From a virus, in IMG/VR virus record IMGVR_UViG_3300017932_000001, positions 1 through 37,956 of that record: a DNA stretch of 37,956 nucleotides. One strand, written 5' to 3'. Position 1 is the stretch's first letter. The number at the start of each line of letters is the position of its first letter. Shown here one piece after another: positions 3,426 to 10,799 of this stretch. The notes beneath the pieces are model-generated. The model was not told the DNA's origin, ran no database searches, and saw only the letters and a program-made list of their open reading frames with translations. Both the position numbers and the translations under genes were made by a program.

Positions 3426-3508
3426 CCTCCCGCGAGCTGCCCTGGATCGACTCCGGCAACAAGATCGACGTCCACTACAAGGCGCTGACGAAAGGACAGG
3501 GGACATGA
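3422..3508 (+). CDS. Very short ORF upstream of erf (28 aa)
   Basis: The ATG overlaps the stop of the DUF6197-like gene and the stop overlaps the ATG of the Erf gene (3505), so it exactly fills the gap with the usual ATGA couplings on both sides. The sequence begins MTSRELPWIDSGNKIDVHYK. It may be a genuine micro-protein or simply a translational-coupling leader that delivers ribosomes to erf. No family is recognised. Confidence 0.5.
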   Translation: MTSRELPWIDSGNKIDVHYKALTKGQGT

Positions 3509-4260
3509 ACGACCTAGAGAGCGACAGACTGGCCACTCTCGACCCGCCCGCTGTGCCGACGCACGAGCCGGCGACAATCATCGACGCCATTGCCCGTGCT
3601 GCCGCGGACCCGAGTGTCGACGTGAACAAGCTCGAACGCCTGCTCGCGATTCAGCAACAGATCATGGCAGATCAGCGCCGCACGTCCTTCATGGCGGCGC
3701 TCGCTCGGTTGCAGGAGAAGATGCCGCAGATTGCGAAGTCCGGCGTGATTACTGATCGCGACGGACGCGAGCGAAACAAGTTCGCCAAGATCGAGGACAT
3801 CGATCGCGTGATTCGGCCCATGTGCGCCGCGGAAGGCTTCAGCTTCTCGTTCGACTCGAAGCCTGCCGGAAAAGACATCGAATACACGTGCACCATGAGC
3901 CACCGCGACGGGCACTCGGAGACGAAGGCGCTCGCGCTTCCGGTGGATGCCGGTGCGGGGCGAAACGCGGTGCAATCGATCGGGTCGACGACGAGCTACG
4001 CGCGCCGGTACCTGCTCGGCATGCACCTGAACCTCGTGACGCGCGACGAGGACGATGACGGTAATGCGCAAGGCTCGGAGCCAATCACCGCAGAGCAGGC
4101 GGCGCACCTGCGAACGGAGCTCGCAGCGGTCGGCGGCAACGAGGCGCGGTTTCTGAACTGGCTTGCGACTGAAAGCTTCGAGACGGTGCGGGCCGCTAAC
4201 TATCAGCGCGCGCTCAGGAGCATCGATGAGAAAAGGCGGCAGAAAGGCGGTGTGGCGTGA
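3505..4260 (+). CDS. erf: Erf-family single-strand annealing protein (251 aa)
   Basis: The ERF superfamily pattern is clear: a long helix (FMAALARLQEKMPQIAKSGV), then 'KFAKIEDIDRVIRPMCAAEGFSFSF', then SIGSTTSYARRYLLGMHLNL, the signature 'S..sYarRY.l...lgi', followed by an acidic DEDDDGN segment. Such proteins form rings on single-stranded DNA and anneal complementary strands in phage recombination and circularisation. The C-terminal ~70 residues are a helical tail, typical for the family. ATG 3505 was chosen over an upstream in-frame start because of the ATGA coupling. It is followed by an exonuclease, its usual partner. Confidence 0.9.
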   Translation: MNDLESDRLATLDPPAVPTHEPATIIDAIARAAADPSVDVNKLERLLAIQQQIMADQRRTSFMAALARLQEKMPQIAKSGVITDRDGRERNKFAKIEDIDRVIRPMCAAEGFSFSFDSKPAGKDIEYTCTMSHRDGHSETKALALPVDAGAGRNAVQSIGSTTSYARRYLLGMHLNLVTRDEDDDGNAQGSEPITAEQAAHLRTELAAVGGNEARFLNWLATESFETVRAANYQRALRSIDEKRRQKGGVA

Positions 4261-4871
4261 TCGTCCACAACGTCCTCCAAGGCACGAGCGAATGGCTGGC
4301 GCTCCGCGCTGGTATCCCGACAGCAAGCGATTTTGACCGCATCATCACCAAGAGCGGTAAGCCGAGCACGCAGGCCGAGAAGTACATGCACAAGCTTCTG
4401 GCTGAACGCATGATGGGTCGCCCCGTCGTCGAGCACGTGTCCTACTGGATGGGGCGCGGCAATCAGATGGAGGCCGAGGCCGTCAGTTACTACGAGCAGA
4501 TGCGCGACCTAGACACTGAGCGCGTTGGCTTCGTTACGGACGACGCGCGCACGATCGGCGCCTCGCCAGACCGCTTTGTCGGTGTGGATGGCCTGCTCGA
4601 AATCAAGGTGCCCGCCGAGCACACGCACGTCGGCTACCTGCTCAAGCACGCGGTCGACGCGGAGTATTACCCGCAGGTGCAGGGTCAGCTTTGGGTGACC
4701 GAGCGCGCCTGGGCGGACATCCTGAGCTATCACCCTGAGATGCCGCCAGCGCTCGTTCGGGTCGAGCGAGACGAGAAGTTCATCGGCGTTCTGTCCGCTG
4801 CCGTGCGCGCCTTTGCCGGAGCCCTGGAGGACATGGCGGCGCAAGCACGGACGAAGGGATGGCTAGCATGA
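4257..4871 (+). CDS. YqaJ/lambda-exonuclease-type nuclease (204 aa)
   Basis: Diagnostic features of the YqaJ-like viral recombinase domain are in order: 'GTSEWLALRAGIPTASDFDRI' at the N-terminus, a 'MGRGNQMEAEAVSYYE' helix, then the catalytic core 'GASPDRF' (Asp), 'GLLEIKVP' (E-x-K) and 'YYPQVQGQLWVT' (Gln). These residues bind metal in the PD-(D/E)XK fold. The enzyme would resect 5' ends to supply substrate to the Erf protein. The GTG start overlaps the erf stop (GTGA). Length is typical for the family. Confidence 0.9.
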   Translation: MIVHNVLQGTSEWLALRAGIPTASDFDRIITKSGKPSTQAEKYMHKLLAERMMGRPVVEHVSYWMGRGNQMEAEAVSYYEQMRDLDTERVGFVTDDARTIGASPDRFVGVDGLLEIKVPAEHTHVGYLLKHAVDAEYYPQVQGQLWVTERAWADILSYHPEMPPALVRVERDEKFIGVLSAAVRAFAGALEDMAAQARTKGWLA

Positions 4872-5608
4872 CCCCCCGCGAGGCGGCCGACACGGCGTGG
4901 GAAGAGTTGCGCTACCGCTCCGAGGTATGCAGCTCGACGCGGCCACTGCTGGCGCTGCACAAGGACATCCGCGCCGCCGTCCAGGCCGAGATCGCGGAGG
5001 CGATGGCGGAGACTCGTCCTTGCCGCACATGCGCAGGATGCCGATACATCTGCGATGCCGATGAGGTGGTCGGCACGGGGCCATGCTCGCGGATTCGATG
5101 CGACAAGAACCGCCGCCCCTGCCCGTCGTGCAACGGGCCGAAGACGTCCGCAGAGCCCGCGCCTGCCCCAGCCCAAGACCCGAACGATCGTGAGCCGCCA
5201 CCACCGCCCGATCGTCTCGCGGTCGTGCCGATGTGGAACAAGGATGGCGAATTCTACTGGACGGAAGCCGCATGCGATGGGCACCAGTACATCCGCGCCG
5301 ACCTCTACGACGCCGCCCAGGCCCGCGCCGCCGAAGCCGAGAAAGCCGCCGACGCGCGATGGTGCGCCGCTCTTGAGCGTGCCGATTGGGACGGCGGCGT
5401 CTTCCACTACGAAGGCAGGATCTACCCATGGCCTAACGGGTTCGTGCCCGACTGCCCGGCGACATGGACCGCGAAGACCGCGCCGATTGAAGCCGAGCGC
5501 GACGAGGCCATAAAGGTTGCGCGAGAGCTGATCGCGGTAACGATGGTGACCGATCTGGCAGAAGCAAAGAGAGCCGAGCGCCGGCTGAACGCGCTGGCGG
5601 GGAAGTAA
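4868..5608 (+). CDS. Cys-rich protein with Pro-rich linker (246 aa)
   Basis: Three parts can be seen: an N-terminal helix (~1-50); a Cys cluster with C-x2-C-x2-C spacing (CRTCAGCRYICDAD) and a later CPSC at about residues 90-93, likely zinc-binding; and, after a Pro/Ala-rich linker ending in five prolines, a C-terminal region with aromatic residues (WDGGVFHYEGRIYPWPNGFV) and a terminal helix. No family is recognised. ATG 4868 (ATGA overlap) is preferred over ATG 4859. Its position after the exonuclease suggests an accessory early role, but none can be assigned. Confidence 0.65.
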   Translation: MTPREAADTAWEELRYRSEVCSSTRPLLALHKDIRAAVQAEIAEAMAETRPCRTCAGCRYICDADEVVGTGPCSRIRCDKNRRPCPSCNGPKTSAEPAPAPAQDPNDREPPPPPDRLAVVPMWNKDGEFYWTEAACDGHQYIRADLYDAAQARAAEAEKAADARWCAALERADWDGGVFHYEGRIYPWPNGFVPDCPATWTAKTAPIEAERDEAIKVARELIAVTMVTDLAEAKRAERRLNALAGK

Positions 5609-5624
5609 GCGGGCAGGACGTCCT

Positions 5625-5831
5625 ATGCGCGCGCCGTCCCAAGAAGACCTCAACGAGGCGATTGCCGACTACCGGGACTGGTGGGAGGCATGGTCAGTCT
5701 TCATGCACCGCGGCGACCCGAGAACGGCGTTGGCCTACAGCTACGTGCATCTATGCGAAGGTAGAATCTTGGCCGTTGCTAGGGGCGAGCCGTTGACTCC
5801 GCTGGCTCGAAAAGCACGAGAGGAACGCTAG
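5625..5831 (+). CDS. Hypothetical protein (68 aa)
   Basis: A short helical, Trp-rich protein (EAIADYRDWWEAWSVFMHRG ... HLCEGRILAVARGEPL). It starts 16 bp after the previous stop and is the last gene before a 114-bp gap containing a promoter. Not recognised. Confidence 0.6.
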   Translation: MRAPSQEDLNEAIADYRDWWEAWSVFMHRGDPRTALAYSYVHLCEGRILAVARGEPLTPLARKAREER

Positions 5832-5906
5832 ACCCTATGCGCCAGCCGAGCCATCAGCCGCCTTTCGGCAACTTTCGGACTATCTCCTATTGAAATTGAA
5901 GGCTCC

Positions 5907-5935
5907 TTGACGCGCAACGACACTGTCGCTACACT
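5907..5935 (+). promoter_or_regulatory. Sigma70-like promoter before the RHH/GIY-YIG operon
   Basis: TTGACG (5907-5912), a 17-bp spacer and TACACT (5930-5935) form a good promoter. The predicted start of transcription (~5942) is only about 4 nt before ATG 5946, so the first gene may be translated from a leaderless or near-leaderless mRNA. Confidence 0.6.
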
Positions 5936-5945
5936 CTGAGCACTA

Positions 5946-6110
5946 ATGAGACGCCTTCGCCCAGTCGTTCAACTCACGCTCTCCCGAGTCGCCGTTGCTC
6001 GCCTGGACGAGATAGCGGCTCGTCGAGGCGAGACACGCAGCGGCATCGTAGAGATGCTGGCTCGCTCGGCGGAGATGCCGCGCGCGAAACCTTCGGTGAA
6101 GCAGTCATGA
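5946..6110 (+). CDS. Ribbon-helix-helix (CopG-like) protein (54 aa)
   Basis: The strand RPVVQLTLSRVAVARLDEIA followed by RGETRSGIVEMLARSAEM reproduces the CopG pattern: beta-strand with alternating hydrophobic residues, helix A, the 'G.trs.iv..l' turn, helix B. It is likely a dimeric DNA-binding repressor or antitoxin. No Shine-Dalgarno site is visible and the promoter lies immediately upstream. It is coupled by ATGA to the GIY-YIG gene, which it may regulate. Confidence 0.75.
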   Translation: MRRLRPVVQLTLSRVAVARLDEIAARRGETRSGIVEMLARSAEMPRAKPSVKQS

Positions 6111-6586
6111 GCGTTGACGCTGGATGCGAACCGATCTGCATTGCTGGCGGTGTCTACCTCCTGGCCGACACCGTGTGCGACCTCGTGAAGGTCGGGATGT
6201 CCGAGTCGAGCGTAGAGAAGCGCGTCGCGGCGCTTGGGACGGCTAGCCCGCATCCGCTGGAACTGCTTGCGGTGGTGCGGACGTTAGACCCCGCAGGACT
6301 TGAGGCGGCGCTGCATCTCGAATTGCACGCGCTTCACGTGCGCGGCGAGTGGTACCGATGGTCGGCCGATGCCTCGGCAGTTGTCGAGCGCACTGTCGCG
6401 TCACACTTCAGCGCGCTTGGTGACGGCTACGTCGAGGTGACGCCGACCGGAATTGCCAAGGGCGTCACGTTGCACGACATTATGAGACAGACGCGGCACA
6501 AGAGCGAGCGGGTCGCGATGACCTACATCCGGCCCGCGACGGTGTTCGTGCGCAACCCGACCGATGGGCTGGGAGACGAAGAATGA
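6107..6586 (+). CDS. GIY-YIG-type (T5orf172/MUG113-like) protein with tyrosine-recombinase-like C-terminus (159 aa)
   Basis: Residues 16-31 (VYLLADTVCDLVKVGM) give the two halves of the GIY-YIG motif as degenerated in the T5orf172/MUG113 branch. 'RVAAL' (~39-43), 'LEAALHLELHALHVRGEWYR' (~65-84) and the conserved GEW follow as in that family, which has a predicted nuclease fold. Residues ~118-158 are unrelated to it: the stretch TLHDIMRQTRHKSERVAMTY, then IRPATVFVRNP, is what the end of a tyrosine integrase looks like, with the box histidine (H131) and the nucleophilic tyrosine (Y140) but none of the preceding Arg/Lys catalytic residues. The tail looks like an integrase remnant fused to the GIY-YIG domain. 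Confidence 0.75.
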   Translation: MSVDAGCEPICIAGGVYLLADTVCDLVKVGMSESSVEKRVAALGTASPHPLELLAVVRTLDPAGLEAALHLELHALHVRGEWYRWSADASAVVERTVASHFSALGDGYVEVTPTGIAKGVTLHDIMRQTRHKSERVAMTYIRPATVFVRNPTDGLGDEE

Positions 6587-6912
6587 GCCGCGGCGACCTC
6601 GTCATGGGCGGTCCGTGCCATCGCTCGCCGACGTGTACGAAGCCGGCCGGTCACTTTGGACCTTGCTCAGACCCTCGCGAGCTTGGCCGACGCCTCGCAG
6701 AGGAGCTTGCCAAGCTGCCACCCATTTGCGGAGTGCCGCTGGACCCACAACGCTCGTTTGAGCGATGCTCGCTCAAGCCTGGTCATCGAGGAAAGCACGG
6801 AAGGAGAACAGACAATGGGAAACTGGAACATCACCGTTCGAGGCGTCGGAAGTCACCACAACCGAAAGAACCGAAGCGACGCGAACCGCATGGCTGCCCG
6901 TTTTGTCCGTGA
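6583..6912 (+). CDS. Cys/His-rich protein with two GH-x2-C/H motifs (109 aa)
   Basis: Two similar units, GPCHRSPTCTKPAGHFGPC and, about 45 residues later, FERCSLKPGHRGKHG, share C-x(4-8)-C-x(3)-GH-x2-C/H spacing and suggest small metal-binding repeats. The ATG overlaps the stop of the GIY-YIG gene. The last ~33 codons overlap the next gene (6815) in another frame and become Arg/Lys/Pro-rich, so the functional part may end earlier. Not recognised as a family. Confidence 0.55.
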   Translation: MSRGDLVMGGPCHRSPTCTKPAGHFGPCSDPRELGRRLAEELAKLPPICGVPLDPQRSFERCSLKPGHRGKHGRRTDNGKLEHHRSRRRKSPQPKEPKRREPHGCPFCP

Positions 6913-7024
6913 GTTGAAAGCGGCCGGGCACTCGGTCATCTCAGCGAGCATCACGTACGGCGCAGAGCAGGACATCACCGAACCGTCGTCACCGGACTTC
7001 GACGAGGGATGGGACAAGGATTAG
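6815..7024 (+). CDS. Small conserved phage protein, 'GNWNI' type (69 aa)
   Basis: The start MGNWNITVRGVGSHHN, followed by ADRMAA-like and 'FVRELKAAGHSVISASITYG' segments, is a pattern I recognise from many phage and plasmid small proteins of unknown function. AAGGAG precedes the ATG at 6815 by 8 nt. It overlaps the end of the preceding Cys/His-rich gene by 98 bp in a different frame. Confidence 0.75.
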   Translation: MGNWNITVRGVGSHHNRKNRSDANRMAARFVRELKAAGHSVISASITYGAEQDITEPSSPDFDEGWDKD

Positions 7025-7087
7025 GTGTGGGTGCAATCGCCGTGACGCTGCGCGCAATGGGTCGAGACACGGAAGGAAGGTGAAGCG

Positions 7088-7363
7088 ATGACGACGAAAC
7101 GGAGCGGTGCTGACGAAGTACGGTTCGCCGTGCACAAGGGTGGCCGAATCACGCGACCGACGCTGGAGCGGCTACTTCACCTTCTCGAGGAGCGGACCAC
7201 CTACGAGGTGCACCTTGCCGTTGAGGTGCTCACACCGACGATGCTCAAGACGGTCGACAACGAGGAGGATGCTCTGGAGACGATTCGACGCCTCGAAGGC
7301 GCTCCGTTGTCTCAGCGACACAAGGTCAAGGGTGGGCTCGTGTCTGGAACGTCAACGAGGTGA
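7088..7363 (+). CDS. Hypothetical protein (91 aa), first gene of the cassette array
   Basis: The ATG is preceded by GGAAGGAAGG and the boundary motif at 7049. The sequence is mixed alpha/beta (VRFAVHKGGRITRPTLERLL ... TYEVHLAVEVLTPTML) without Cys clusters. The stop codon is part of the next boundary motif. Not recognised. Confidence 0.6.
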   Translation: MTTKRSGADEVRFAVHKGGRITRPTLERLLHLLEERTTYEVHLAVEVLTPTMLKTVDNEEDALETIRRLEGAPLSQRHKVKGGLVSGTSTR

Positions 7364-7390
7364 TGCGCGCAAACCTGAAAGGAGACGAGG

Positions 7391-7756
7391 GTGAGCCAGT
7401 TTGGAGACGGAGATACGGTCACGGTGTGGCGAGACTCCTGGCACCGGGCGCGCAAAGAGCACAAGTGCCGCGCGTGTCACGAGCCCATCGCCGTTGGGCA
7501 CCGCTATCACCTTACGTTCTACATCTTCGAGGGCGACGCGCACACGGTCAAACGGTGCGAGCGTTGTCAGACCATCTTCGAGCACCTGAGCGGTCGCATC
7601 AGCGCAGAGGGTGACTCCGAGGAGTTTTGCGACGAAGAGCTAAATTGCGGTCATACGTACCGGGAACGGTGGGAGGAGGAGGCGCCGCCGTGGCTGGCTG
7701 CGCTCGCGTTCTGGCGTCCCGGAGACCCGTTGCCCGAGCCTCCGAAGGTCGCCTGA
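7391..7756 (+). CDS. Zinc-ribbon-like small phage protein (121 aa)
   Basis: 'HKCRACHEPIAVGHRYH' and 'VKRCERCQTIFEHL' form a C-x2-C ... C-x2-C pair about 30 residues apart, a pattern frequent in phage accessory proteins ('RKEHKCRAC' class). A third partial cluster, CDEELNCGHTY, follows. The start is GTG after AAAGGAGA. Function unknown; a structural zinc site is inferred. Confidence 0.65.
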   Translation: MSQFGDGDTVTVWRDSWHRARKEHKCRACHEPIAVGHRYHLTFYIFEGDAHTVKRCERCQTIFEHLSGRISAEGDSEEFCDEELNCGHTYRERWEEEAPPWLAALAFWRPGDPLPEPPKVA

Positions 7757-7805
7757 TGTGTGGAAGAAAGCCGCGCGGCTGCGCGCAAGGGAGAGCTAGA
7801 CAATC

Positions 7806-8000
7806 ATGAGAACCGCGACCGTGTGTATTGATGTCAAGTCGCCCGACGAATGGGGCAACCTGATTCACAACCTCGCCCTGTCTGATGCGGTGAGCCGAGC
7901 ACACTTCGAGTTCGGGGAATACGCGACACTGGAGCTTGAGTTCGACGAGACGCTACACGTCGTGAGCGGTCGTGTGGTGCCGGTTGCATCCCCGAAGTGA
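7806..8000 (+). CDS. Hypothetical protein (64 aa)
   Basis: The ATG follows AGGGAGAGC and the boundary motif at 7780. The protein has alternating strands and helices (TATVCIDVKSPDEWGNLIHN ... YATLELEFDETLHVV) and no metal cluster. The last codons (ASPK, stop) and the following 15 bases are shared exactly with the gene ending at 9683. Not recognised. Confidence 0.6.
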   Translation: MRTATVCIDVKSPDEWGNLIHNLALSDAVSRAHFEFGEYATLELEFDETLHVVSGRVVPVASPK

Positions 8001-8045
8001 TGCGCGCGAGGGGCTTTAGGACAATGGCAAACGGAGGCGAGGTCG

Positions 8046-8231
8046 ATGGCCGTGCACGAATGTGAGATATGCGGCATGCAGTGCGACTGCGACGGCGAGG
8101 ACATGCAGAATCCTCAACCTGACGACTGCGTGCATCTAGGCCGCGACTGCGACGACGAGTACAGCGACTGCGACGACGAGTACAGCGACAACCCGACCGA
8201 TGGGCTCGGGGATGAGGAGCCGAGCAAGTGA
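8046..8231 (+). CDS. Cys/Asp-rich mini-protein with shared C-terminal tail (61 aa)
   Basis: It contains CEICGMQCDCDGED near the N-terminus, a 21-bp tandem duplication encoding two DCDDEYS units, and a C-terminal NPTDGLGDEEPSK that repeats the end of the GIY-YIG protein. The Cys and Asp content suggests metal binding. ATG 8046 is preceded by GGAGGCGAGG. The composition is unusual for the window. Function unknown. Confidence 0.6.
   Translation: MAVHECEICGMQCDCDGEDMQNPQPDDCVHLGRDCDDEYSDCDDEYSDNPTDGLGDEEPSK
8143..8184 (+). repeat. 21-bp perfect tandem duplication
   Basis: Two exact copies of a 21-bp unit beginning GCGACTGCGACGACGAG lie inside the gene at 8046-8231. They add seven residues (DCDDEYS) and keep the frame. 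Confidence 0.9.
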
Positions 8232-8575
8232 ACAAGCACCCTTGGGTTTGCGCTGAGCACGACGCGAGCGGGTACAACGAAACCGGCAAGTGCCCTTCAT
8301 GCTCTGCCAAGCCGCAACAGCCGTGGCCGCCGCTCGTGGCTCCAGGATGGCCTACGGCCGCAGACGTTCAGCGCGAGCGCGAGCGGAACTGGCAAGCCGT
8401 GCTCCTACTCCGGAAGGCCCTTCAAATGCTTCGTGGCGGCAACTGCTGCGATGGCGAGGACGCGACCATGAGCGACGAAAACAAGGCATTCCAGAAGGAG
8501 CTTGACGCGTACCTTGAGACCTTCGAGGAGCCGGAAAACGTGGACCCCGATTGGGGAAATGGTGTGCCAAGGTGA
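8228..8575 (+). CDS. Zinc-ribbon-like hypothetical protein (115 aa)
   Basis: GTG overlaps the previous stop (GTGA). The N-terminal 'VCAEHDASGYNETGKCPSC' gives a C-x2-H ... C-x2-C site. A helix follows (ERERNWQAVLLLRKALQMLR) and an acidic tail (FQKELDAYLETFEEPENVDP). It is the only array gene joined by overlap rather than by the boundary motif, so it may form one unit with its upstream neighbour. Not recognised. Confidence 0.6.
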   Translation: MNKHPWVCAEHDASGYNETGKCPSCSAKPQQPWPPLVAPGWPTAADVQRERERNWQAVLLLRKALQMLRGGNCCDGEDATMSDENKAFQKELDAYLETFEEPENVDPDWGNGVPR

Positions 8576-8632
8576 GGAACAACGGCGCGGGAGTGCGCGC
8601 AACCTCGATGCAAACGAAGGACAGGTGACGAC

Positions 8633-8917
8633 GTGGACGAATCGAGACGACTGGCGATGCGGCGAGCGCACACGAAGCACGGCATACATTGCACGTGTGG
8701 CAAGGTCGTATGGGGCAACGGTGGAAAGTACGTCCACCGCGAGATGCACGCACGTCGTAATGACGGGCACCACGGCGTCGTCGCCGACGTGTGGCGCTTT
8801 ATGTTTCCAGGGCACGATGGCCGAAAAGCGCGCAGTCCATCGATGACGTACGAGGAGGCGATTGCGGCTGAGCGGAAAGCGTGCGCAGAGCGCGTCAGCC
8901 AACGCGCCGCAATGTAG
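8633..8917 (+). CDS. Cys/His-containing hypothetical protein (94 aa)
   Basis: GTG start downstream of the 8594 boundary motif and GAAGGACAGG. The segment 'HGIHCTCGKVVWGNGGKYVH' followed by REMH gives C-x-C ... H-x3-H, a possible zinc finger. A helix rich in Glu/Ala (YEEAIAAERKACAERV) closes the protein. Function unknown. Confidence 0.6.
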   Translation: MDESRRLAMRRAHTKHGIHCTCGKVVWGNGGKYVHREMHARRNDGHHGVVADVWRFMFPGHDGRKARSPSMTYEEAIAAERKACAERVSQRAAM

Positions 8918-8966
8918 GGAAGATGTTCGATACGCTGCGCGCAACCCGAGAGGAGACACGCGAACC

Positions 8967-9167
8967 GTGAAGAAGTGCATCCGATGCGGCGCGAAGGTGT
9001 CCAGACCGGGCATCGAGTATTGCGAGGAGTGCTGCTACGACCTCTTGGGCGAAGAGGTAGAGGCACACCCGCTCGGTGGTCACCTTTGCGTGAACCTGCC
9101 GCACGGTTGCGACCAAGACCCGCTCGCGCATGAATGGTCGGGCAAGGTATCGAAGAAACGCGCTTAG
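8967..9167 (+). CDS. Zinc-ribbon-like mini-protein (66 aa)
   Basis: The GTG at 8967 follows GAGGAGAC and the 8936 boundary motif; upstream in-frame starts would run through the motif. 'KKCIRCGAKVSRPGIEYCEEC' has C-x2-C ... C-x2-C spacing, characteristic of a zinc ribbon. Cys and His residues in the second half (GGHLCVNLPHGC) could form another site. Function unknown. Confidence 0.65.
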   Translation: MKKCIRCGAKVSRPGIEYCEECCYDLLGEEVEAHPLGGHLCVNLPHGCDQDPLAHEWSGKVSKKRA

Positions 9168-9196
9168 CTGCGCGCATTGAGAGAGGAGACGAGCGA

Positions 9197-9460
9197 ATGG
9201 GAGACATACGGATAACCGGCTGCGACCACTGCGGCAAGCGTGTAGAAAACCCATACGCTGAGCGCGGATGGCTCCAGATCGCCGCTCGTGGCATCGAAGC
9301 GGTGTCAATCTCACGCTCCGTAGGGAGGATGGGGCCGACGTCGTACGAGACCGACTATTTACGGTCCGTGCGTGACTTCTGCGGCATCGCCTGCCTAATT
9401 GCTGCATTGGACCAGAAAGCCCGAGAGCGTGAGGACGAGTCGTTGAAAATCACGAAGTGA
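9197..9460 (+). CDS. Treble-clef-like zinc protein (87 aa)
   Basis: ATG 9197 follows AGAGAGGAGACGAGCGA and the 9169 motif. 'GCDHCGKRVENPYAERGW' near the N-terminus pairs with 'DFCGIACLIAAL' about 50 residues later, the C-x2-C ... C-x3-C arrangement of many small phage zinc proteins in which the last Cys begins a helix. Function unknown; DNA or RNA contact is possible. Confidence 0.65.
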   Translation: MGDIRITGCDHCGKRVENPYAERGWLQIAARGIEAVSISRSVGRMGPTSYETDYLRSVRDFCGIACLIAALDQKAREREDESLKITK

Positions 9461-9485
9461 TGCGCGCGACCCGGGAGAGAATGCC

Positions 9486-9683
9486 GTGAACAAGCCGACG
9501 TGGACGGAAAAGGAAGTTGTCATCTGGCATCAGCTAGAACCTGGGGCGAGCGCCGAGACTCTCATGCGTCGTGCGGGGTATGGCGGGCGCAAGGGGCGCC
9601 GGGCGATACGTAGGCTCAATGTGATGCCTCGGACCGTGGCGCGCATAGGTATCGCGATGATGTCGGAAGCATCCCCGAAGTGA
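9486..9683 (+). CDS. Possible helix-turn-helix mini-protein (65 aa)
   Basis: GTG start after GGGAGAGAATGCC and the 9461 motif. 'WTEKEVVIWHQLEPGASAET' followed by LMRRAGYGGRKGRRAIRRL resembles the recognition part of a MerR/sigma-like helix-turn-helix ('a...l.r.gysgRk...ai..l'). The C-terminal ASPK and its flanking bases are identical to those at 7986-8007. A regulatory role is inferred weakly. Confidence 0.55.
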   Translation: MNKPTWTEKEVVIWHQLEPGASAETLMRRAGYGGRKGRRAIRRLNVMPRTVARIGIAMMSEASPK

Positions 9684-9703
9684 TGCGCGCAAGGGAGACG
9701 AAA

Positions 9704-9910
9704 ATGCCAGAATCAAGCTGCCCCGTCTGCCGCGGTGAGGCCGACCCCGTGAAGCTCTCCCTACAGAGCTTATGCGAGGCGCATCTCGCGAAGGTGCAGC
9801 CACTCTCCGAGGAGCAAGTCAAAGCTGCGCTCGAAGAGGGGCTACGCGCACGAGCGGAGGCCATCGCCGCCACGCCCGCTGTTGTACCGCCGCGTGGGTT
9901 CTTTCGATGA
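9704..9910 (+). CDS. Zinc-binding mini-protein (68 aa)
   Basis: ATG 9704 follows AAGGGAGACG and the last boundary motif (9684). 'SCPVCRGEADPVKLSLQSLC' then EAHL gives C-x2-C ... C-x2-H. A long Glu/Ala-rich helix follows (EEQVKAALEEGLRARAEAIA). Function unknown. Confidence 0.6.
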   Translation: MPESSCPVCRGEADPVKLSLQSLCEAHLAKVQPLSEEQVKAALEEGLRARAEAIAATPAVVPPRGFFR

Positions 9911-10061
9911 TATCGTCGCAGCAAGCCACCTGCGAGGGAGCGGGATCGCGTTCGAAGGTCACCGGCCTGATAAGCCGTGCCATGGCGCAGAACGTCTCTC
10001 GCTTGCCTTGCGCAGCATCGACGACAGGCCGGCTGAGTTATTTACCGATGTGGCGCTGTAG
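9894..10061 (+). CDS. Possible small protein (55 aa) at the end of the array
   Basis: A GTG start inside the end of the previous gene, in another frame, begins VGSFDDIVAASHLRGSGIAF; the protein ends with an 'ERLSLALRSIDDRPAELFTDVAL' segment of natural-looking composition. No clear ribosome-binding site was seen. Other frames in 9911-10115 read less well. It converges on the lysis block. Confidence 0.4.
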   Translation: MGSFDDIVAASHLRGSGIAFEGHRPDKPCHGAERLSLALRSIDDRPAELFTDVAL

Positions 10062-10080
10062 TCAGGATCGGCCTGACGAT

Positions 10081-10093
10081 GCCCCCGCGGGGC
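10081..10093. terminator. GC-rich hairpin between convergent transcripts
   Basis: GCCCC-CGC-GGGGC forms a 5-bp stem in the 54-bp gap between the end of the array (10061) and the end of the GH25 gene (10116). No U-tract follows on either strand, so intrinsic termination is doubtful. Confidence 0.25.
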
Positions 10094-10115
10094 GACCAGA
10101 CGCCAACGAAGTAGG

Positions 10116-10799
10116 CTACAGCGCGTCTCCCGCGCACCACGCGGCGAGCGAGTCGGCGGTGCCCATGAAGACGTCCGTATCGCACCGCGCGCCGTTGGGG
10201 AGCTTGTAAAACGACCCGCCCGACGTCTGCCAAAGCGTCGCCTCTGGCCACGGGGCGAGGACGGTCGGGGCGTCGCCATCCTTCGGCCAAGCAAGCGGGC
10301 TGCGGTAGTCCGCGAGCCAGAGCTTGTAGGCCGCGAAGTCCGCGCGATGCCCGGCGCCGATCGCCATGATGAAGCTCGGATAGCTGTAAAATATCGGTCT
10401 GCAGCCCCAAAGCGACGTTGCGGCGTCGAGGTACGCAAGCGCCCAGTCGCAGAGCTGCGTCGGGGTGCAGTTCTGCGTGGCCCACTTGTCAGGGTCGGGC
10501 CACTCGAAGTCGAGCGATGGGGCCAGTTCGCCAGCATCGCCACCGAGGCCGCCCGAGGCTTGGAAGTGGAGGCCGGCCTGCACCTTCGGGTCATTGCTAG
10601 GCAAGGGGTGCGCGAAGTTGTAGCAGCCGACGATGAGGCCCCCGGCGTGCGCGCTATCGCGGTTCGCGATGAAGTCGACGTCTTGCAGGTTGGAGTGGCC
10701 CTCGGCGCACTTGACGATCGCGAACCGCATCGCGTCGGCGGGCGGGAGCTTGAGGTCCGGGCGGCCCTGATAGGAGCTGAGGTCGAGGCCGCGGATCAT
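10116..10799 (-). CDS. GH25-type muramidase, endolysin (227 aa)
   Basis: The protein begins MIRGLDLSSYQGRPDL, the GH25 start with the first catalytic-site Asp (D6). 'AIVKCAEG' (~27-34), 'GGLIVGCYNFAHP' (~53-65) and 'LAPSLDFEW' (~92-100, with the D-x-E pair D97/E99) follow in family order, ending with a 'LWQTSGG' strand. The enzyme would cleave the beta-1,4 bond between N-acetylmuramic acid and N-acetylglucosamine. No signal peptide is seen, so it would need the holins for release. It is the last gene of the minus-strand operon, with an ATGA overlap to the transglycosylase-like gene. Confidence 0.88.
   Translation of the reverse strand: MIRGLDLSSYQGRPDLKLPPADAMRFAIVKCAEGHSNLQDVDFIANRDSAHAGGLIVGCYNFAHPLPSNDPKVQAGLHFQASGGLGGDAGELAPSLDFEWPDPDKWATQNCTPTQLCDWALAYLDAATSLWGCRPIFYSYPSFIMAIGAGHRADFAAYKLWLADYRSPLAWPKDGDAPTVLAPWPEATLWQTSGGSFYKLPNGARCDTDVFMGTADSLAAWCAGDAL

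Follow-up and report, generated by a model that had tools for sequence, protein, structure and literature searches.

The DNA analysed here (hereafter the window) is the whole of IMG/VR virus record IMGVR_UViG_3300017932_000001, 37,956 bp in length, and our subject is an array of eleven small head-to-tail genes, g0 to g10, whose junctions carry copies of a short oriented sequence element (Table 1). Nine of the junctions have a gap, and the sequence TGCGCGC occurs exactly once in each of these gaps, which together account for 364 of 2,680 nt; outside the gaps, the plus strand from g0 to g10 holds no further copy. The sole junction without TGCGCGC is g4/g5, where a 4-nt overlap leaves no space for one. 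The nine motif-bearing junctions picked out in the initial annotation are therefore confirmed, with every real gap filled, and with the correction that the core reads TGCGCGCA in seven cases and TGCGCGCG, with G instead of A after TGCGCGC, in the other two. The TGA of the motif also serves as the upstream stop codon in four junctions, as then proposed; the genes ended by it are g1, g3, g8 and g9. A gene caller written for this analysis, blind to the motif and used as an independent check on the gene set, recovered exactly g0–g10, and the codon-position GC content of the array open reading frames (ORFs) is coding-like.

In a genome of 64% GC, such a pattern could in principle be a by-product of composition, or else of ordinary tandem gene duplication, for which the 20-amino-acid (aa) tail shared by g4 and an upstream MUG113 protein might be cited. 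However, a third-order Markov null yields a mean of 0.05 motif-bearing gaps (maximum 3), the best shared 7-mer in 2,000 null arrays reaches four of nine gaps compared to the nine of nine observed, and the gaps of about 300 other loci hold no comparable shared 7-mer, while an all-against-all comparison of the array proteins found no paralogues. For practical purposes, chance or gene duplication is thus excluded, and we assign this explanation a very small residual probability.

When the nine copies are aligned without gaps on the core, and the columns are numbered relative to it, the conserved unit is an oriented element of ~32 nt, tGTnnGGAAnAnnnnCGnnnnGnTGCGCGCRA, which is longer than the 12-mer first noted. 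Columns G-22, C-8 and G-7 are invariant (9/9), with adjacent columns near background, whereas T-21, A-13, G-2 and A+8 are shared by eight copies and G-18 by seven. A leave-one-out score computed on the 24 nt upstream of the core ranges from 5.6 to 18.9 in the nine copies, compared to a mean of -13.6 (standard deviation 7.2, 99th percentile 3.7) for the same score at 1,997 other TGCGCGC sites. Scored with the full profile, the nine copies reach 28.4–39.3 bits and the next-best site in the window 13.8, in agreement with the initial observation that nothing similar lies between the window's other genes. When the scan was extended to ~300 other loci, covering 8 million positions on both strands with the window included, all non-array sites scored ≤20. 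The 12-mer as first written is not enriched across the window as a whole (76 matches at ≤3 mismatches, as opposed to 67.5 expected), the signal being one of position and of the extended element.

Table 1. Coordinates of the junction elements (J), array genes (g) and associated features; positions refer to the window unless another locus is named.
Feature	Position	Strand	Core start	Description and basis
J1	7026..7057	+	7049	g0/g1; begins right after the g0 stop
J2	7341..7372	+	7364	g1/g2; covers 23 nt of g1, whose TGA abuts the core
J3	7757..7788	+	7780	g2/g3
J4	7978..8009	+	8001	g3/g4; core TGCGCGCG; 87% identical over 38 nt to J10
J6	8571..8602	+	8594	g5/g6
J7	8913..8944	+	8936	g6/g7
J8	9146..9177	+	9169	g7/g8; its reading frame in g7 differs from that of J2, J4, J9 and J10 in their genes
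J9	9438..9469	+	9461	g8/g9; core TGCGCGCG
J10	9661..9692	+	9684	g9/g10
g0	6815..7024	+		69 aa; precedes first element (ORF, gene caller)
g1	7088..7363	+		91 aa; no family (gene caller, family search)
g2	7391..7756	+		121 aa; zinc-ribbon-like, phrog_7314 family (61% homologue in L247)
g3	7806..8000	+		64 aa; no family (gene caller, family search)
g4	8046..8231	+		61 aa; acidic repeat protein, C-terminus shared with MUG113 protein
g5	8228..8575	+		115 aa; overlaps g4 by 4 nt, no element at this junction
g6	8633..8917	+		94 aa; cysteine/histidine-containing (gene caller)
g7	8967..9167	+		66 aa; CxxC protein (gene caller)
g8	9197..9460	+		87 aa; CxxC protein (gene caller)
g9	9486..9683	+		65 aa (gene caller)
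g10	9704..9910	+		68 aa; CxxC protein, closes array (gene caller)
Erf	3505..4260	+		Erf-type single-strand annealing protein (phrog_155, E=1e-39; 64% identical in G005)
Exonuclease	4257..4871	+		YqaJ/RecE-like (phrog_149, E=1e-34; 66% identical in G005)
Promoter	5907..5935	+		Sole sigma-70-like promoter in 5500-10150, TTGACG-17-TACACT, before the RHH gene; weak (count close to shuffle mean)
RHH	5946..6110	+		Ribbon-helix-helix (CopG-type) protein, 54 aa, candidate binder (PF01402, E=5e-4, marginally under cut-off)
MUG113	6107..6586	+		MUG113/T5orf172-domain protein (GIY-YIG-like); 4-nt overlap with RHH gene
G005 core sites	L125 5960, 6149, 6890, 7217			
L007 core sites	L007 5081, 5408, 5847, 6074, 6303			0-14 nt past stop codon

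With respect to the neighboring genes, the element begins past the upstream stop in J1 and J3, overlaps the upstream gene by 5 nt in J6 and J7, and covers the final 22–23 nt of that gene in J2, J4, J8, J9 and J10. In some junctions the element is untranslated, and in others it is read, in two frames overall; because the ends of the upstream genes are covered in differing reading frames, the constraint acts at the level of DNA or RNA rather than protein. Upstream stop codons are either supplied by the element or directly adjoin it, and the spacing between core and start codon ranges from 13 to 38 nt, such that the element is anchored to the end of the upstream gene rather than to the downstream start. 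This anchoring and this variable distance both speak against a translation or mRNA-processing signal of the start-associated type, which would set initiation together with the Shine–Dalgarno sequence or direct a cut between cistrons. In keeping with such a signal, the element is always sense-oriented and ahead of the ribosome-binding site (often GGAGAC), its core is asymmetric across phages, and the start-associated sequences of cluster K are likewise placed before starts (PMC3203893). However, the consensus fold across the nine junctions is empty, Rfam has no match to the junction elements, and the final copy in another array-bearing phage, L007 (discussed below), lies ~78 nt ahead of the next gene, a structural one; we thus consider this explanation unlikely. 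No junction has a terminator-like stem on the plus strand.

A promoter before each gene, for which a sigma factor of unusual type or some phage factor would be needed, is suggested by the ~17-nt spacing from the GT..GG block to the core, which resembles a -35/-10 pair. A transcription start 6–7 nt past the core would, however, remove or cut the Shine–Dalgarno sequence in J3 and J10, no phage sigma factor was recognised, and a scan of positions 5500–10150 found no sigma-70-like promoter in any junction, making per-gene promoters distinctly improbable. Sigma-54-type and Z-DNA readings were dropped on paper, as the spacing or alternation is not kept.

The mean flank identity among copies is 45% upstream and 36% downstream, compared to 27% at random positions, and the copies are therefore related beyond the core. 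The pairs that are most alike are J4/J10 (87% over 38 nt), J7/J8 (71% over 56 nt) and J9/J10 (72% over 43 nt). At the same time, conservation is more uneven between columns than uniform decay from a common ancestor would produce (variance P=0.007; number of 9/9 columns P=0.03). As the flanks are alike and yet the columns are unevenly conserved, we read the history of the element as copying plus constraint at particular bases.

The relatedness of the copies also bears on one of the two readings offered in the initial annotation, namely that the elements are recombination joints, short homologies at which Erf and the YqaJ exonuclease would join single-gene cassettes, with genes gained and lost from between identical boundaries. 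The two recombination genes lie ~2–3.5 kb upstream of the array, and Erf-type recombinases tolerate sequence divergence and recombine diverged DNA (PMC3945230). The likeness of the above pairs beyond the core, the raised upstream flank identity, the stop codons abutted or supplied by elements, and a core upstream of a g2 homologue in an otherwise unrelated contig (L247, described below) are all consistent with such joints. However, J4/J10 share 22 contiguous identical nt whereas most other copies now share only ~7–15, conservation falls mainly in certain columns, a pattern that pure homology would not require, exonuclease relatives at 58–70% identity have no such array, and L007 has the same core yet no shared proteins. 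We found no phage pair with conserved junctions but a swapped cassette, nor a sufficiently close relative in which to look for one. A recombination joint could thus not be shown, and we place it among the less likely explanations.

The products of the array genes have almost no detectable homologues, and none was found in 379 Myxococcota genomes, where the lone match (E=8e-4) has internal stops. The g2 family (phrog_7314) comprises widespread small phage proteins with paired CxxC motifs, with weak relatives in Gordonia, Arthrobacter, Klebsiella and Rhodobacter phages. Within g4 (window 8083–8184), in-frame GCGACTGCGACGACGAGTACA repeats encode DCDDEYS, an acidic cysteine repeat. Separately, a 30-nt repeat, 87% identical and encoding NPTDGLGDEE, is found at the C-terminal coding ends of both the MUG113 gene (6553–6582) and g4 (8189–8218), and provides a further indication that gene ends in this part of the window have exchanged sequence.

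In 303 loci (1,736 gaps), 7-mers shared among same-strand gaps were counted without motif bias. The window ranks top in this count (9), followed by L007 (4), with L125, the locus of phage G005, among those with 3, and the most-shared 7-mer is TGCGCGC in all three alike. G005 (59,962 bp), which was reached via portal homology and not via the motif, is a distant relative of the window phage, with structural proteins ~20–40% identical (portal 35%) and closer recombination proteins (Table 1). The exact core is present in four of its five gaps (null mean 0.13), and a profile built from these four sites finds a degenerate fifth, TGAGCGCG (L125 6302), exactly at the remaining junction, scoring 18.1 bits compared to ≤13.5 elsewhere. 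The G005 flanks, TAGACTCAnCC-N3-core-TTG, are unlike those of the window. In L007, a 25,835-bp contig without detectable protein homology to the window or G005, a small-gene array has the core in five of five gaps (null mean 0.06).

The otherwise unrelated contig L247 holds the sole good homologue of any cassette gene, that of g2, and here CAACACTGCGCGC occurs twice, one copy lying 33 nt ahead of that homologue and the other 149 nt farther upstream, with flanks that resemble the window element above chance (p=0.005); more distant g2 homologues have no core upstream. Both L007 and L247 are probably partial contigs. We rejected L009 and L298 as further arrays, as the matches are coding-sequence coincidences, and k-mer clusters in the relatives L160, L186, L194, L165, L134 and L071 proved to be GC-biased coding repeats. 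A strict scan of viral contigs for the motif plus a ribosome-binding site returned mostly isolated chance matches.

Several other features were seen in these and further contigs. In L007, a long perfect palindrome, TCGGAAACCCGGGTTTCCGA, recurs between structural-region genes (near 2172, 7395, 8388 and 9182) as a second intergenic repeat family, and a small protein at 7766–8272 resembles, by eye, the DNA-binding region of DnaA domain IV (SYPMIGSFVGGRDHTTV). On the minus strand of L246 (7822–8601), GGAAACCG is common to three gaps in 0.8 kb, a possible further junction-repeat array, and two portal relatives carry AT-rich short repeats in four copies each (L126 10459–10675, CCAATAAGATTG; L154 914–1594, ATCAGGTTTT).

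The phage itself, in which terminase, portal, protease, capsid, baseplate, Erf and exonuclease genes were recognised, likely has a host from Myxococcota or a related group, as the closest named relative of its portal is that of Myxococcus phage Mx4 (33%). A terminase-based search found no close relatives, no syntenic relative was recovered, and the phage collection held no DNA similar to the left two thirds of the window or to the array. Besides the exonuclease relatives already mentioned, which have no array, 23 portal relatives contain no TGATGCGCGCRA, and the strict pattern of stop, core, ribosome-binding site and start matched in 14 of the 379 Myxococcota genomes, once each and never in a cluster. 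Neither the presumed hosts nor the phage family at large thus carry the motif as a general feature; the initial annotation had asked whether it might be equally common in either, and the answer came out in its favor.

Taking these observations together, the reading that we tentatively favor, to which we give somewhat less than an even chance, is that of a regulator binding site at each operon junction that would permit per-gene control, with the RHH protein as candidate binder. Of the two possibilities first suggested, it is this one that is supported by the data: by the frame-independent, column-wise conservation of an oriented ~32-nt element, by the same core in the junction arrays of other phages, by the absence of arrays of this kind from genomes in the phylum of the presumed host, and by a DNA-binding RHH protein whose occurrence among related phages follows that of the arrays. 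The array would probably constitute one polycistronic accessory operon, in which each gap with room for it carries one oriented ~32-bp cis element that may act as a sequence-specific recognition site on DNA or RNA. A regulator would bind the element and alter transcription or translation of the next gene, thus controlling the genes individually in the manner of operators or of stoperators, intergenic sites at which a bound repressor stops elongation. The prime candidate for this regulator is the RHH protein, whose gene lies shortly before the array. The cassette-like appearance of the array could then be a by-product of genes having been copied together with their control site.

In G005, an RHH gene lies inside the array, directly before an element, and encodes a protein 61% identical over 41 aa to that of the window (E=4e-15), although the portals are only 35% identical. 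The RHH gene hence adjoins the sites in both phages, as would be expected of an operator array under RHH control. A two-sequence RHH profile found no match in four exonuclease relatives and 22 portal relatives without arrays, and gave one match (E=0.007) in G031, a g2-bearing contig. The neighboring MUG113 gene was found in the window only, and we rejected the idea of the RHH protein and a GIY-YIG nuclease as a homing pair, as the gene was not detected in the other array phages.

We note, however, that several points weigh against regulation by this protein at these sites. The RHH gene was undetected in L007 and L247, both probably partial contigs, so that a host factor, or a phage factor encoded outside the contigs, may act instead. 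The element was also not found in the promoter region of the RHH gene, where the site of an autoregulator would be expected, and the link between RHH gene and array is a correlation in two positive phages, involving partial contigs and noticed after the fact. L007, moreover, was initially picked up via one of its own motif sites, the other four being independent. Finally, the eighth base of the core varies outside the window (G or T in L007, T or C in G005), such that the full 8-bp palindrome is not kept there, and the conservation is not that of a simple dyad site.

A broader proposal, which we regard as rather doubtful at present, is that TGCGCGC-centred elements are a widespread punctuation of small-gene arrays, in which the flanks would be family-specific, a conserved factor (phage RHH or host protein) would read the junctions, and the genes would be tradable as cassettes; if so, any gene placed between two elements would fall under the same control. 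Many of the tools that phages use for host takeover and counter-defence are encoded in arrays of tiny genes. A junction element that recurs gene by gene, with a core common to unrelated phages, provides a testable handle on how such arrays are controlled and put together, by way of its binder, and the element could also be used as a tag when unannotated phages are searched for arrays of accessory genes.

We found no prior description of the junction element in the literature searched, most subscription journals being outside that search, and compared it to four known systems. The start-associated sequences (SAS) and extended SAS (ESAS) of cluster K mycobacteriophages are short repeats of asymmetric sequence that precede many small non-structural genes, for the most part in a single orientation; they sometimes contain the upstream stop codon, and have no known function (PMC3203893; PMC12699233). 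The window array likewise has oriented repeats upstream of many small non-structural genes, and the SAS comparison made in the initial annotation is apt in the sense of "works like", with a different sequence, as was also said then: the 13-bp SAS consensus GGGATAGGAGCCC has no match in the window at ≤2 mismatches and eight at 3 (10 expected at ≤3). In contrast to SAS, where GGGATAGGAGCCC includes the Shine–Dalgarno sequence, the window element, ~32 nt long, ends before it, is tied in position to the upstream stop and occurs in a single 2.7-kb array only. Its core ends 13–38 nt before the start rather than lying at the ribosome-binding site, and neither a conserved fold nor short-distance inverted repeats, such as the 17-bp imperfect inverted repeat of ESAS, were reported around the elements.

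The stoperators of cluster A mycobacteriophages (L5, TipsytheTRex) are protein-binding sites of asymmetric sequence that lie within short intergenic spaces and point in the direction of transcription (PMC9283540). The window elements are likewise asymmetric, intergenic and oriented with transcription; stoperators, however, are 13-bp sites found genome-wide and bound by a repressor with helix-turn-helix and stoperator domains, whereas the candidate binder here is an RHH protein and the next site in the window scores 13.8 compared to at least 28.4 in the array. The 13-bp stoperator consensus, GGTGGMTGTCAAG, is not enriched in the window (19 matches at ≤3 mismatches, as opposed to 16.5 expected). 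In T4-like phages, the promoter-early stem-loops (PeSLs) are repeated intergenic cassettes of an early promoter and a stem-loop, proposed to mediate small-gene shuffling (as cited in PMC4503421); neither a sigma-70-like promoter nor a stem-loop was found in the window junctions. In Gordonia phage CaiB (cluster DR), several genes are preceded by intergenic repeats with block-wise conservation and a ribosome site of the GAGAGGAC type (PMC9302106). The window array resembles these, but the CaiB repeats differ in sequence and stand at dispersed genes, at a fixed distance to the starts. Judged from its sequence and placement, the junction element thus appears to work like SAS and stoperators while belonging to neither family and, unlike the known systems, its core recurs in the array of an unrelated phage, L007.

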